A stretch of DNA of 64,000 nt from Bdellovibrio bacteriovorus (GTDB lineage: Bacteria > Bdellovibrionota > Bdellovibrionia > Bdellovibrionales > Bdellovibrionaceae): assembly GCF_002208115.1 (NCBI RefSeq), contig NZ_CP020946.1, positions 248,001-312,000 of the forward strand, given 5' to 3'. Positions 49,384 to 56,384 of the stretch are shown here, piece after piece. The notes under the pieces are model-generated. The model was not told where the DNA came from. It saw only the letters and a program-made list of their open reading frames with translations, and did not search any database. The position numbers and the translations under genes were made by a program. Positions within the stretch are counted from its first letter, which is position 1. Each line of letters begins with the position of its first letter.

Positions 49384-49768
49384 CACGGTTTTGCGGATGA
49401 TTGCTCTAATAATGCTCTAAATTCCTGAAATTAGAGAGGAAAGTCCGGACTCCATATGGCAGCGCAAGGGGTAACGCCCCTCTACAGTAATGTAAGGAAC
49501 AGTGGAACAGAGAGAATGTCCAGGGCATTGAGCCAGACACCGGGAACGGGAGGGTCTGGGGAGCTGCTGGAGTGAAAACAGCCAAACTCTGCGCGGAGCA
49601 AGATCAAATAGGGTGACACTAGTAGGGCGGCCAGCCCGTAGTCACCGGGTAAGATCGCTTGAGGGTGTCAGTAATGCCACTCCCAGAGGAATGATCATCC
49701 ACGATTATCGGGTAAATTATGGGACCTGGTAGTTTGGACAGAATCCGGCTTATAGCAAAACCGAGATC
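49384..49768 (+). ncRNA. rnpB: RNase P RNA, class A
   Basis: The catalytic RNA that trims the 5' leader of pre-tRNA. Conserved blocks appear in order: GAGGAAAGTCCGGAC (from 49435), AGCGCAAGGGGTAACGCCC, GGAACAGAGAG-type segment, CTGCGCGGAGCAAGATCAAATAGG-like P8-J region, AGATCGCTTGAGG, GTAATGCC, AGAGGAATGATCATC and ACAGAATCCGGCTTA near the 3' end. The ends are set by a nine-base P1 helix: CGGTTTTGC at 49386-49394 pairs with GCAAAACCG at 49755-49763. Total about 385 nucleotides, the normal size. Confidence 0.96.
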
Positions 49769-51173: not shown

Positions 51174-51493
51174 AGTTGAATCAAAAAGAAAGCCCGCCTT
51201 CGTTCTGAGGGCGGACTTCCAACTCTCTGGATCTTCATTCCTAAAGATCCGTGTCTTGATAGAAATATGCGATTGCTTAAAGATAAGTTTACTAAGGTCA
51301 GTGGTGCTGACAATTCAAATGCTCAAATTACAGAGGTCTGGGTTCACCGTAGTCTTGGTGTTGCTAGGTCCAGTAGCCCAGTTTTGGTGTCTTTTCGCAC
51401 TGGTCCTCTGGACCAGATTTTGTGTCGCTAAACATCTTTAAAGCGAGAAGTTAGTACACCTCAGATAATCTGATTTGTATGGAGGGAAATCCC
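51174..51493. other. 320-base intergenic region
   Basis: No certain gene. It holds an imperfect hairpin (AAGCCCGCC / GGCGGACTT, about 51190-51217) just after the S33 gene, lacking a T-run. A 54-codon reading frame (51267-51431: MRLLKDKFTKVSGADNSNAQ...) starts with ATG but has no ribosome site and an unremarkable composition, so it is not called. The rest is AT-rich and probably contains the promoter of the following three-gene operon. Confidence 0.5.
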
Positions 51494-53077
51494 ATGCGTT
51501 TCGCTATAGTTCTGTTGTGTGCACTCACAGCATTTGTTGGCGCTTGTTCTTCGTTCAAATCTTCCACGGAAAGAACGCCAGCAGCGACCTATTATGTAGA
51601 TCCTCAATATTATGACCTGCAGGTTTTGATGGCGGAAGCTTTGGACTTCCGTGCGGCGGCCTTGCGCTTTGCTGATGAAAAAAAGCTGGGTCAAACGGGT
51701 GACGTGTCCTTGAGTCGTTCTGAGGGTGAATGGGTTCGCGCCATGGGCGCGAAGTATCTGGAAACACGCAAAAAACTGATGGATTTGGCGATCGCTGAAG
51801 GTGAGTACTTCGCGGGTAAAAATCAGGTGAAGTTGGCGCCGTATAAAGGCACCAAAGCCGAAAAGAAAGAACGCAATGTTCGCAAGGATACCTACGAAAC
51901 ATATAATGTTTTGAATGTGGATCCAAAAGATGCTCAGGGCGAAAAACAGATATTCCGCATGCAGATGGCTTTGGCTTCCGCATTGCTTCTGATGGACAAC
52001 TATCTGGTTGCCATCCAGCCATTCAACGAAAACTCTTCTTTGCGTTATGTTCTGAACTATGACGTTCCTCAAAAACGTGCATTGCAGGCGATTGCGGATT
52101 CCTATTCCTCCACACATCGTCGTGATCAGATCGAAGACGCAATCAAGTTCATCGACTCTGTGATGGCTTGGCGTCGCGCCAACGGTGAAAAAACCAGCCC
52201 GGAAGAAGCTCAGCTTTATACTCTGACTCAATCCAGTATCTGGTATCTTGCAGTTAAGAATGACAAGACCGGCACGGGCTTTAAAGATGCCATTGCGAAC
52301 CTGTGGAATCGTCTGACGTTGCGTGGAAAACGCGGCGTGCGTGCAGTGTCTTACGGGGTGAGCATGGGCTTTGGTAACATGGTCGGCCTGGTAGAAACCC
52401 GTAAGGGCTTCCTTTACAACATGTCTGAATCCGAAAAAGCGAATCTGATTGGCGAAATGAAACCTCTGGACATTCTGATGGAGAAAACTCCATTCCGTCT
52501 GACCGACAAGATGATCCCGGGCCACTATGGTCACGTGGCGATCTGGTTGGGCACTGAAGCACAGCTTAAAGACCTGCAGGTTTGGGACCAGATCCCGGCC
52601 AAAATTCAGGCGAAGATCCGCGCCGGTCACCGCATCGTGGAAGCTTTGCGCCCGGGTGTGGAACTGAACACATTGGAGCACTTCCTGAATATCGATGACT
52701 TTCTGGTGGTGCGTGACACTCGTTCCAATATCACGGATGAATATCGTCGCAAGGCCGTTTTGCAGGCGATTGCCCAGATCGGTAAAGAGTATGACTTCAA
52801 CTTCGACGTTCATACTCACACCCGTATCGTTTGTTCCGAGATCGCGTATGTGGTCTTTGGTGATGTGAAATGGCCTTTGGAGGAAACTCTGCGCCGTTAC
52901 ACCATCAGCCCGGATAACGTGGCTCAACTGGCGATCGGAAACCAGAGAACCTTTGAACCGGTGATCATGTATTACGACGGTAAGCGCGTTTACAAGGATT
53001 TGCCTTATTCTTTGGGTCTTTTGTTGAAAGCCGACGACCAACACTACGCTGAATTTAAAAAATTCCAGAATCTGTAG
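51494..53077 (+). CDS. Permuted papain-fold (YiiX/NlpC-P60-like) lipoprotein
   Basis: 527 residues from the ATG at 51494, set by GGAGGG upstream. Lipoprotein signal RFAIVLLCALTAFVGACSS. The first ~320 residues are helical and unassigned. The C-terminal domain has the order of circularly permuted NlpC/P60 (YiiX-like) enzymes: His first (GHYGHVAIWLG, H347) and the catalytic Cys later (HTHTRIVCSEIAYVVFG, C447), with YDFNFD between. The fold cleaves amide or ester bonds, in peptidoglycan or lipids. Membrane-anchored outside the cytoplasm. Heads an operon with a second lipoprotein and a phospholipase D. Confidence 0.82.
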   Translation: MRFAIVLLCALTAFVGACSSFKSSTERTPAATYYVDPQYYDLQVLMAEALDFRAAALRFADEKKLGQTGDVSLSRSEGEWVRAMGAKYLETRKKLMDLAIAEGEYFAGKNQVKLAPYKGTKAEKKERNVRKDTYETYNVLNVDPKDAQGEKQIFRMQMALASALLLMDNYLVAIQPFNENSSLRYVLNYDVPQKRALQAIADSYSSTHRRDQIEDAIKFIDSVMAWRRANGEKTSPEEAQLYTLTQSSIWYLAVKNDKTGTGFKDAIANLWNRLTLRGKRGVRAVSYGVSMGFGNMVGLVETRKGFLYNMSESEKANLIGEMKPLDILMEKTPFRLTDKMIPGHYGHVAIWLGTEAQLKDLQVWDQIPAKIQAKIRAGHRIVEALRPGVELNTLEHFLNIDDFLVVRDTRSNITDEYRRKAVLQAIAQIGKEYDFNFDVHTHTRIVCSEIAYVVFGDVKWPLEETLRRYTISPDNVAQLAIGNQRTFEPVIMYYDGKRVYKDLPYSLGLLLKADDQHYAEFKKFQNL

Positions 53078-53086
53078 GAAGTAATC

Positions 53087-54298
53087 ATGAAGATGACGAT
53101 GAAATCCGCTTTGATTGCCTGCACAGCCCTGATGGCTGTGCATTGCACCCATAAAGAGGTGCGTGAACCAGCCAGTGAAAAAAAGTACACGATCTCGGAT
53201 GGGCAGACTCAGGCATTGGCTGATCTGATCGGGGGGGATTCCCCTTTGAAGCCGTATCGTCATCCGATGAAGATTTCTTTCCACACCAATGGCGACCAAA
53301 AGTATCTTTCTGAAACGGCCCGCAAGGCTCTGAATCAAGCGATCATTGAAACGCTGGGTGTGGAAAATCCGGAACAGGGCCTGGCTAAACTGGCGGTAGG
53401 AAACCTGAAAGACGCGATGATCGAAAACTTTGTAAAGACCATGCGTATTTACAAGATCATCAACACCGGACTGCAGGTGGATCTGACTTTCCTGCCTCAG
53501 CCGAATCAAAAGAATGATTATGCGACCGAGTTGAACAGCAATCAACTGGTTCGCTTCAATGAAACCGGCGCATTGAGCTCCAAGTGGGATCAGTTGGAAA
53601 AGTCCACCGACACCGGCACTGTTTATAATAACTCAGTGTACATCCCGGCCACCCAAGGAAAGGCCGACTATATCGGTGGTACGGTGACCTTTTATGTTGA
53701 GATTCTGGATACCCGTCCCAAGTTCGGTCTGCCGAGCATCAAAAAGAACGGCGTCAAGGGCTTTGCCCGTTATCGCCGGTACTATCGCCTGAACCGCGAA
53801 GTGCAAAAGTCAGTAACCTGCGAAGGCTTCACACTGTCGGCTAAGAAGGCCGGTGCCGAAGTGCCGTTGTTCTACACGGTGGATCTGTATAAGAACTTCA
53901 GTCTGAAAGACATCATTCCGACGGAAGAAACCATCGAAGTCTTCCCGGGCCTCGTGGCCTCGAACAATGAGGGACGTTCTGAATTGATGCCGGATAAATA
54001 CGAAAAAACCGGCAAGTCCATTCCAACGGGTCAGTTCCTGGTGGAAAGTAAGAAGTCCTTTGTGGAAGAGATCAGCTTCAACCTGGAAAAGATCGTTTAC
54101 GACCTGAAAGAGAAAAAACTGGATCGCGATCGTTCCCGCGTCAAGCTGGTGGAATACTATTCTTCCCGTGATAACGACAATATGGCGAACGAGACCCAGG
54201 CGCTTTATTCTGCGCGCGTCCAGTACCTGAAAAAATGTGAGTCATCGATGGAGAAATTCCTGCATCTGGATGCTCTGGTGAACGGAGGTGTCCTGTGA
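53087..54298 (+). CDS. Exported lipoprotein-like protein of unknown function
   Basis: 403 residues. N-terminus MKMTMKSALIACTALMAVHCTHKE looks like a lipoprotein signal although the residue before Cys20 is His, which weakens the lipobox. The mature protein has no recognised fold; beta-rich middle (VYIPATQGKADYIGGTVTFYVEILDTRPKFG) and a helical, charged C-terminus (SARVQYLKKCESSMEKFLHLDALV). Nine bases after the papain-like gene, and its stop overlaps the phospholipase start (GTGA), so the three products are probably made in fixed ratio and work together. Confidence 0.75.
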   Translation: MKMTMKSALIACTALMAVHCTHKEVREPASEKKYTISDGQTQALADLIGGDSPLKPYRHPMKISFHTNGDQKYLSETARKALNQAIIETLGVENPEQGLAKLAVGNLKDAMIENFVKTMRIYKIINTGLQVDLTFLPQPNQKNDYATELNSNQLVRFNETGALSSKWDQLEKSTDTGTVYNNSVYIPATQGKADYIGGTVTFYVEILDTRPKFGLPSIKKNGVKGFARYRRYYRLNREVQKSVTCEGFTLSAKKAGAEVPLFYTVDLYKNFSLKDIIPTEETIEVFPGLVASNNEGRSELMPDKYEKTGKSIPTGQFLVESKKSFVEEISFNLEKIVYDLKEKKLDRDRSRVKLVEYYSSRDNDNMANETQALYSARVQYLKKCESSMEKFLHLDALVNGGVL

Positions 54299-56349
54299 AA
54301 AAGACCCTGTTGATTCTAAGTTCTGTGGTTTTTGCCTCCACTGCGGTGGCGCAAACGGCACAAGTGTCTTTGAAAGAGCGCATTGCTGCCATGGACTACT
54401 ATAAGAAAAATCATGACATGATGTTTGCGGCAGAAGCCTGCCGTCGTCCAGAGACTTTGCTTCAGGAAATCAAAAAGCTCCCGGCGTCCGAGCAGACCAA
54501 GGCTCGCGCTTTTGTGAAAGCCAATGATTCCATCGTGCCGGAAAAAATCCTGCTTCCTTTGGTTTATTGGAAGTTTGTGAAAAAGAATGCGGCAAATGAA
54601 GGCAAGGTGATGCAGTACTGGCTGCAGATGCGTTTGCAGGCCCTGCGTGACTATGCTGATAATCCTTTGGTTAAAGATAAAGCGGCTCAGAACGAAGCCC
54701 GCTCTTTGATGACCTCATGGGCTGGAGCTTCCAACTTGAGTCTGACCAGTCGCGAACTGACCGAAAATTTGCAAAAACGTTTCCCGCAGATGGACCCGTA
54801 CTCTTTGTCGGCGGGGGGCTTTGTCCCGGGCAACATTGTAGAGCTGGTCAGTCATAACGAGATATCTCCGGAAAGAATCCAATGGTTCAATGACCGCGTG
54901 ATCTTTGCCGGTGGGGTGCTTGATTTCAGTCAACCTTATATGAAGATGCCTTTGCACAAGGACGATGACGGACATCCGTCTTTCAAAGACCCAATGTTTG
55001 CAAAAATCCGTGACATGATCCTTTCCGCGAAAGAGTCGGTGTTCATTGATATCTTCCTTTTTGGCGGAACGATGGGTGGAACTTTGAGCAAGTTCCTGCT
55101 GGATCAAACAGTGGAAAAGAAGAAAGCCAATCCGAACTTCAAGGTGTTGTTGCTGCATGATTATGCCACAAACTACAACATGAAGGACGAGATGATGCCG
55201 ATCTTTAAGTATATTAAAGACCGTGCGGCAACCGATCCTGGTCTGAAGGGTTCTGTGTACCTGCTTCAGGCCAACATTCAGCGCCATCCTCCTGGGATTC
55301 CGTTCGGTATCACGAACCTGGTGCCGAAGACGGAAGAGACTTTCAAAGCCCTGGAAAAGCGCAACACTTACTACGAATCCAAGATCGATCATAGCAAGGT
55401 GATCGTGGTGGATCCCGAATCTGATGCGCCTCAGGCTTATTTTGGTTCCAAGAACTGGTCTGATCACAGTGGTGGCTATTACTATGATAATGCCCTTTAT
55501 GTGAAAGGCCCTGCCGCAGCGTTGGTTCAGGCCGCTTACTATGATGATGTCGAAGCGGCGTTGACGACAGATCCGAACGAAAGAAAATGGTTCTATTACA
55601 AGGAAGAGGGTTACGACAACGCAGCTTATCTTAAAAACCGTGATCAGATTCTGGCGTGGTTCCGCGTTGACAGAACTTCGTTCCCGGCCGTGGGAAATCA
55701 GTCTGTACGTCTGGCGGAAGCCAATGTGGATGGGAAAATCAAAGACACCCGCAACATGCTGGTGGATATGATTATGAAAGCCGAAAGCCACATCTATATG
55801 GAGCATCTGTTCATTTATGACAAGTACATCAACGATGCCCTGATGAAACGCAAGGCGCAGGTTCCGGGTTTGAAGATCCGCATTCTGGCTGACCACAACG
55901 GAAACTTCAGTTTGGGGGGATTGCCAAATACATTGTACTTGGATCAGTTGCTGCGTCATGGGGTTGAAGTTCGTGCCCGCCGCACTTTGGGTATCGAAGC
56001 GAAGTTCCCTAATGGAAAAACACAAGGCTATCACCAGGAAAATCACCGTAAGATTACTTCCGTTGATGGCAAAGTGATGCTGGTGGGTTCTTCGAACTTG
56101 AATCCGGACACTTTGCAGGGAAGTTTCCGTGAATTCGGAGCACAGTTGTTTGATCAGAAAGTCATCGGTGGCTTTGAAGAAGAATTCCTGGATGCGTGGA
56201 GTGACGACAAGCTTGTCGGTCCGTTCTATGAAGGTGAGCATCTGCAGTTGCAGGTGATGGGTAAAACCCTGTCGCCGGAACTAAGCCAGATCATCAATGA
56301 TCTGGGTTCCACGGTGCTAAGAGCCAAAGACGACATCGAAAAGCGTTAA
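54295..56349 (+). CDS. Exported phospholipase D-family enzyme (cardiolipin-synthase-like)
   Basis: 684 residues from a GTG six bases after GGAGG. Signal peptide KKTLLILSSVVFASTAVAQ. It has two complete HKD motifs: H366-S-K368-x4-D373 in KIDHSKVIVVDPES (followed by GSKNW) and H584-R-K586-x4-D591 in ENHRKITSVDGKVMLVGSSNLNPD. A helical domain of ~200 residues precedes the first. PLD enzymes cleave or transfer phosphodiesters of phospholipids, or act as nucleases. The signal peptide makes it periplasmic or secreted, unlike normal cardiolipin synthases. Last gene of the operon. Confidence 0.92.
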   Translation: MKKTLLILSSVVFASTAVAQTAQVSLKERIAAMDYYKKNHDMMFAAEACRRPETLLQEIKKLPASEQTKARAFVKANDSIVPEKILLPLVYWKFVKKNAANEGKVMQYWLQMRLQALRDYADNPLVKDKAAQNEARSLMTSWAGASNLSLTSRELTENLQKRFPQMDPYSLSAGGFVPGNIVELVSHNEISPERIQWFNDRVIFAGGVLDFSQPYMKMPLHKDDDGHPSFKDPMFAKIRDMILSAKESVFIDIFLFGGTMGGTLSKFLLDQTVEKKKANPNFKVLLLHDYATNYNMKDEMMPIFKYIKDRAATDPGLKGSVYLLQANIQRHPPGIPFGITNLVPKTEETFKALEKRNTYYESKIDHSKVIVVDPESDAPQAYFGSKNWSDHSGGYYYDNALYVKGPAAALVQAAYYDDVEAALTTDPNERKWFYYKEEGYDNAAYLKNRDQILAWFRVDRTSFPAVGNQSVRLAEANVDGKIKDTRNMLVDMIMKAESHIYMEHLFIYDKYINDALMKRKAQVPGLKIRILADHNGNFSLGGLPNTLYLDQLLRHGVEVRARRTLGIEAKFPNGKTQGYHQENHRKITSVDGKVMLVGSSNLNPDTLQGSFREFGAQLFDQKVIGGFEEEFLDAWSDDKLVGPFYEGEHLQLQVMGKTLSPELSQIINDLGSTVLRAKDDIEKR

Positions 56350-56355
56350 AACTAA

Positions 56356-56384
56356 AAAGGGCCTCAAAGGCCCTTTTTGTTTTT
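56356..56384 (+). terminator. Terminator of the papain/lipoprotein/phospholipase operon
   Basis: Nine-pair stem AAAGGGCCT / AGGCCCTTT with a three-base loop (56356-56376), followed by TTGTTTTT. Confidence 0.92.

Follow-up and report, generated by a model that had tools for sequence, protein, structure and literature searches.

A three-gene operon of Bdellovibrio bacteriovorus with a predicted role in exported phospholipid processing

A 64,000-nucleotide stretch of Bdellovibrio bacteriovorus DNA (contig NZ_CP020946.1, positions 248,001 to 312,000 of the forward strand; hereafter the window), part of a genome of 3,769,537 bases, carries three adjacent genes encoding a lipoprotein with a C92/YiiX-like domain (P1), a membrane-tethered protein of a new family (P2) and an exported phospholipase D (PLD)-like protein (P3). 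The explanation that we favour, and to which we give about an even chance, is that they would form an exported phospholipid-processing unit, in which P3 would act at the phospholipid head group and P1 at the acyl chains, with P2 as the partner of P3. Phospholipid is taken as the common denominator because permuted NlpC/P60 lipid enzymes share the operon with a PLD. Since the set recurs in distantly related predators, it probably represents a genuine functional unit that processes membrane lipids, perhaps of prey origin. What the analysis establishes is the order of the genes and its conservation, N-termini whose sequence patterns point to export or lipidation, catalytic residues that are all in place, the occurrence of these domains in fusions and, through mapping, the presence of the P3 orthologue Bd3603 in bdelloplasts; the substrates, the role of P2 and the target membrane are what we infer.

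The three genes and their products

P1 and P2 are separated by 9 bases, the stop codon of P2 overlaps the start of P3 by 4 bases, and a strong terminator lies 3' of P3, so that the three genes are predicted to form one operon (Table 1). The open reading frames and gene descriptions of the first-pass annotation were confirmed, coordinates included. Terminator-like hairpins of the weaker type that stands upstream of P1 were observed at 8 sites, with 7 expected in shuffles.

Table 1 Features of the operon (window positions) and of related fusion genes (positions within their loci).
Feature	Position	Strand	Description
P1	51494..53077	+	Lipoprotein (Cys18); helical N-terminal region ~35-255; C-terminal C92/YiiX permuted NlpC/P60 domain 326-480
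C92 catalytic domain of P1	52469..52933	+	Pfam range
C92 codon, His347	52532-52534	+
C92 codon, Glu383	52640-52642	+
C92 codon, Tyr433	52790-52792	+
C92 codon, Cys447	52832-52834	+
P2	53087..54298	+	403-residue lipoprotein (Cys20), family unknown; Halobacteriovoraceae-type relatives have an N-terminal membrane-anchor-like segment instead of the lipobox
P3	54295..56349	+	Exported two-HKD phospholipase D-like protein; GTG start
HKD1 of P3	55390-55413	+
HKD2 of P3	56044-56067	+
Intrinsic terminator	56353..56379	+	End of operon; 12-pair stem followed by TTTTT
Weaker terminator-like hairpin	51400..51416	+	Interval between the upstream hydrolase gene and P1
C92-PLD fusions	L091:34-3030, L094:94-3069	-	~1000 residues; sister genus, same family; PLD half resembles cardiolipin synthase

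The C-terminal domain of P1 is a C92/YiiX-like permuted NlpC/P60 enzyme by profile, residues and fold. The Pfam family PF05708 (Peptidase_C92) matches it with an E-value of 1.3e-22 and a score of 81 bits (cut-off 27), and the NCBIfam YiiX profile scores far under its cut-off. In an AlphaFold model of P1 (mean predicted local distance difference test score (pLDDT) 76, predicted template modelling score (pTM) 0.47), the C-terminal part superimposes on E. coli YiiX (2if6) with Z 14.6 and a root-mean-square deviation of 2.3 over 147 residues and on B. cereus BcPPNE (3kw0) with Z 13.3, the next unrelated row standing at Z 7.2. The four residues His347, Glu383, Tyr433 and Cys447 are invariant across 21 homologues, and their permuted order, with His and Glu ahead of Cys, fits the four catalytic residues of the family (PMC3142127). 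A fold search with the helical N-terminal region returned no assignable fold, its best Z of 7.2 being common for helical bundles. The P1 lipobox reads VGAC; a simple pattern predicts lipobox cysteines for P1 and P2, both in the window proteins and in every Bdellovibrio orthologue. A second C92-domain protein above the Pfam cut-off is encoded in the window's own genome (G000:C1:823611-824003).

Permuted NlpC/P60 enzymes have a hydrophobic pocket, which in the YiiX crystal is occupied by a fatty acid (PMC3142127), and a toxin of this class turns phosphatidylglycerol and phosphatidylethanolamine into lysolipids (PMC12994826). The first-pass annotation had suggested that the two recognisable enzymes could act on lipids or on the wall; the lipid part of that suggestion stands, and the wall part is weakened, since the class has a hydrophobic pocket and takes lipids and not peptidoglycan as substrates (PMC3142127, PMC12994826). 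Wall hydrolysis by the class of P1 is thus disfavoured.

P3 begins with a predicted Sec-type signal (AVA/Q) and carries two HxKxxxxD motifs (H366/K368/D373 and H584/K586/D591), all of whose named residues are invariant in 28 sequences with 49-96% identity to the window protein. PLDc_2 (E-value 3.1e-19) and PLDc both match above the Pfam cut-off. The best NCBIfam match is cardiolipin synthase (2.4e-8), far under cut-off: the cardiolipin synthase profiles TIGR04265 and ClsB score 33.4 and 26.8 bits where 290 and 281 bits would be needed. The nearest sequences in the PDB are secreted phospholipases D of Streptomyces.

P2 has, by simple pattern, a lipobox cysteine after a hydrophobic stretch, with His at position -1. 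Searches of Pfam, NCBIfam and PDB sequences with P2, and of Pfam and PDB with a family of 29 orthologues, gave no match, and a search for phage relatives found none. The lipobox is present in Bdellovibrio and in family f16, and most of family f17 has a hydrophobic anchor-like segment at the equivalent place; the constant feature of P2 is thus a predicted membrane tether, since one or the other occupies the same N-terminal position across families. P2 evolves fastest of the three, with a mean identity within the genus of 54% compared with 74% for P1 and 76% for P3. The P2 model is of middling quality (pLDDT 69.9, pTM 0.69). Its weak fold matches to TULIP-type proteins (Der f 7-type allergen Z 4.5, Takeout Z 3.9, lipopolysaccharide-binding protein Z 3.8) stand level with porins and unrelated chains, and given this tie with porins a TULIP fold was not accepted and is at most a lead.

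Conservation and recurrent pairing

In a survey of 291 Bdellovibrionota genomes, P2 is present in 42 and is adjoined by P3 on the same contig in 41 of them, the exception being a genome (G050) in which the two genes lie on separate contigs; most loci that were read keep the exact 4-base overlap. In 16 of the 42 (7 Bdellovibrio, 4 of family f16, 2 of f2 and 3 of f17) P1 adjoins the pair as well, and the other 26 have a P1 homologue elsewhere. All 42 genomes with P2 therefore have a P1 homologue, compared with 59 of the 249 without P2 (Fisher 5e-23, relatedness ignored); within the genus the figures are 8 of 8 and 0 of 13. The first-pass annotation had proposed conservation of the trio as a check, with a lack of it counting against the proposal. 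That check was run and upholds the grouping as more than chance: the order is kept in 16 genomes of four families and the P2-P3 pair almost throughout. Neither a description of the set as a system nor any paper on the trio was found in the open-licence literature, in agreement with the earlier statement that none was known.

The P1 tree intersperses linked and unlinked copies, with at least seven changes, and the trio is accordingly either ancient and often broken up or the result of P1 having been recruited more than once. Genomes of family f17 hold up to 6 C92 lipoproteins each, mostly apart from P2-P3. In many marine or Halobacteriovorax-type genomes (L108-L112, L114), P2-P3 occurs without P1 at a fixed site downstream of genes for peptide deformylase, TrmO, GreA/GreB and a low-molecular-weight phosphatase. 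A first broad genome scan with P2 gave no conserved stretch, and P3 was used as the query instead; the scan of 84,980 species with P3 yielded 28 loci, all but one with Bdellovibrionota-type titles (Bdellovibrio, Bacteriovorax, Halobacteriovorax, Oligoflexia and others). The exception (L117, JASLZG010000039) is a contig of a metagenome-assembled genome titled Lentisphaeria, whose P3 homologue is 49% identical and has no P2 within 10 kb upstream, pointing to mis-binning or transfer.

One genome (G074, loci L074 and L097) encodes P1 and P2 in a single reading frame of ~920 residues. Five relatives belonging to genus g4 of that family have a P1 homologue inside a frame of ~1000 residues; the two g4 frames read by Pfam contain C92 followed by a two-HKD PLD. 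The PLD half of these fusions matches cardiolipin synthase at 1e-27 to 1e-31, far better than P3 does, and lies nearer another, cardiolipin-synthase-like lipoprotein PLD, which rules out the fusion as P1 joined to P3. Because a different PLD subfamily was used, C92 and PLD must have been brought together at least twice, once in an operon and once in a fusion, and such repeated pairing is evidence that the two act on a common substrate or in a common pathway.

Upstream of the operon, the window contains the RNase P RNA (RF00010, 209.7 bits) at 49385-49768. The neighbouring alpha/beta hydrolase reading frame, called from 49719, overlaps the 3' end of this RNA, and its true start is probably a later Met before MKTLLFVLIMAAGLAAQA. 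In a relative (G065, UBA4095), P2-P3 lies just 3' of an RNase P-like sequence and P1 is on a different contig. A tRNA-borne island was ruled out, as there are no tRNA genes nearby and the apparent upstream repeat is the 3' end of the RNase P RNA.

Proposed activity and competing explanations

In the mechanism that we propose, P3 would be a PLD-type enzyme, either a hydrolase or a phosphatidyl transferase, released to the periplasm or beyond, with its two HKD motifs forming one active site for the head-group phosphodiester of phospholipids. P1, a lipoprotein belonging to the YiiX/LRAT-like class of thiol acyl-hydrolases and acyltransferases, would act through a Cys447-His347 pair and an acyl-thioester on the fatty-acyl bonds of phospholipids or of their products. 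P2 would be a tethered periplasmic protein serving P3 as folding partner, self-protecting inhibitor or lipid-presenting factor. Jointly, the three could break down or reshape phospholipids where predator and prey meet, the likeliest target being prey membranes during and after invasion, with the activity kept under control at the predator's own membrane. A more far-reaching reading, in our view rather doubtful, is that the set amounts to a dedicated phospholipid-dismantling system of predatory Bdellovibrionota, composed of a secreted PLD, a tethered partner of a new family and a lipoprotein acyl hydrolase. Such a system would attack prey phospholipids from the head-group and the acyl end alike, and the predator would gain the acyl chains and head groups so released.

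A connection with predation comes from strain HD100, whose P3 orthologue is a 96% identical protein. PLD-family loci in HD100 lie at 0.42, 0.65, 0.96, 1.19, 1.44, 2.30 and 3.50 Mb; by mapping, Bd1257, Bd1516 and Bd3603 fit those at 1.19, 1.44 and 3.50 Mb, of which the last is the P3 orthologue and the only PLD beyond 2.3 Mb. The locus tag of the orthologue is accordingly Bd3603 by mapping. All three proteins were found by mass spectrometry in empty bdelloplasts in 2024 and ranked as likely secreted predatory proteins (PMC11003981). A search of the open-licence literature for papers on prey lipid use found none. The enzymes with which Bdellovibrio handles prey membrane lipids, its own membranes lying so near, are poorly defined, and for this question the operon offers two candidate enzymes and a strictly paired new family, P2. 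Close relatives with the trio, without it and with a decayed copy make a natural comparison set.

Several observations weigh against the explanation that we favour. The empty-bdelloplast sample also held proteins of broken predators, so that the presence of Bd3603 there is support for, and not proof of, secretion into prey (PMC11003981). With its linked and unlinked copies interspersed in the tree, P1 may be less tightly associated with the set than P2, and a fold search with P2 gave no convincing match (best Foldseek E-value 0.17, best Z 5.0). The intact set is missing in 13 of the 21 genomes of the genus. In B. bacteriovorus kdesi, what is left is the C-terminal half of P3 (L113:10001-11077; residues 326-684, 87% identity), which adjoins an M3 peptidase gene and has an RCC1-repeat gene upstream at the expected place of P1 and P2, consistent with a recent loss of the trio; the twelve others lack all three genes or have distant PLD matches only. 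The trio is probably dispensable for predation, because it is absent or broken in these 13 genomes, and the relatives without it include probable predators.

The same enzymes might instead maintain the predator's own envelope, with outer-membrane P1 and P2 and periplasmic P3 clearing or rebuilding misplaced phospholipids, a task that falls to outer-membrane phospholipase A in other bacteria, or making special lipids such as cardiolipin, and with no prey target. The lipobox of P1 and the lipobox or anchor of P2 would hold both proteins on the predator, and cardiolipin synthase is the best NCBIfam match of P3 and a much better one of the fusion PLD half. We nevertheless consider this doubtful: the P3 orthologue is reported from empty bdelloplasts, the P3 family, found only in Bdellovibrionota and one metagenomic contig, is narrower than general housekeeping would predict, and patchy occurrence within the genus sits poorly with a core envelope role. 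Bdelloplast detection and the restriction to the phylum make action on the prey membrane the likelier of the two. An improbable variant casts P1 as a lipoprotein N-acyltransferase or deacylase and the operon as a lipoprotein maturation unit, on the precedent of the relatives LnsA and DUF4105/Lnb, which transfer acyl groups onto lipoproteins (PMC7387801, PMC12994826). It leaves P3 unexplained, and a replacement for Lnt would be superfluous, as the genome has its own (229.5 bits against a curated cut-off of 132.9), which rules out P1 in that capacity. Weak NucT profile matches (2.6e-5) would fit P3 as a secreted nuclease of the PLD superfamily with prey nucleic acid as its substrate; this is highly improbable, as the cardiolipin synthase and phospholipase D matches are better, the operon partner comes from a lipid-acting family, and the known NucT-type nucleases have one HKD per chain where P3 has two.

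Two further proposals refine the role of P2 and are compatible with an exported phospholipid-processing unit. Because it is always found with P3 and is membrane-tethered, P2 is most simply the dedicated tethered partner of P3, and foldase, inhibitor and lipid-presenting factor are alternatives of similar standing, about equally open. It is tentatively possible that P2 is a foldase or chaperone like LipH, needed before P3 leaves the periplasm. The obligatory pairing, the tether and the synthesis of P3 directly after P2 would fit such a function; no PLD is known to require a LipH-like foldase, and similarity of P2 to LipH was found neither in sequence nor in fold. The precedent here is LipA/LipH (PMC13381987). 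P3, and possibly P1, may otherwise be a lipase toxin directed at prey or competitors, with P2 as its tethered immunity inhibitor, an arrangement with precedents among PLD effectors with adjoining immunity proteins such as PldA/PA3488 (PMC9550806). Translational coupling to P3, present alongside P2 in 41 of the 42 genomes, rapid evolution and a periplasmic-side tether achieved by differing means would all suit an immunity protein. This reading is unlikely, however: P3 is among the most conserved of the trio and has no fast-evolving or swapped part typical of polymorphic toxins, no orphan P2 without P3 was seen among the 42 genomes, and sequence searches did not connect P2 with any known immunity family.

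Comparison with known systems

Secreted Streptomyces PLD (PDB 1f0i, 1v0r) and cardiolipin synthase (TIGR04265) share with P3 two HKD motifs per chain, the match lying mainly round the second, and the Streptomyces enzyme is likewise exported. P3 differs in a distinct conserved N-terminal region of ~230 residues, and its matches to both are weak or under cut-off. YiiX and BcPPNE (C92, PF05708) resemble P1 in fold and in the equivalents of Cys, His, Glu and Tyr, and a lipobox is found in many of their relatives; P1 has in addition a helical N-terminal region of ~250 residues and an operon with a PLD. Salmonella Tox-Act1 belongs to the same enzyme class, has the Cys/His pair and, in the periplasm, targets membrane phospholipids (PMC12994826). 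It is an injected type VI secretion system effector of another clade, whereas P1, a predicted enzyme, is a lipoprotein on the YiiX side.

PldA (Tle5) with PA3488 (PMC9550806) offers the likeness of a PLD next to a dedicated partner gene; P3 has a Sec signal instead of type VI delivery, and no similarity of P2 to immunity proteins was found. In LipA/LipH (PMC13381987), too, a lipid enzyme has a periplasmic partner that is obligate and tethered to the membrane, but the enzymes are unrelated and no P2-LipH similarity was detected. In the bdelloplast proteome with Bd1257 and Bd1516 (PMC11003981), Bd3603, which maps as the P3 orthologue, is only listed in the paper's text, and the operon, P1 and P2 go unmentioned. 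Both enzymes belong to known superfamilies; the novelty lies in their conserved operon, in the family of P2 and in the repeated pairing of C92 with PLD.

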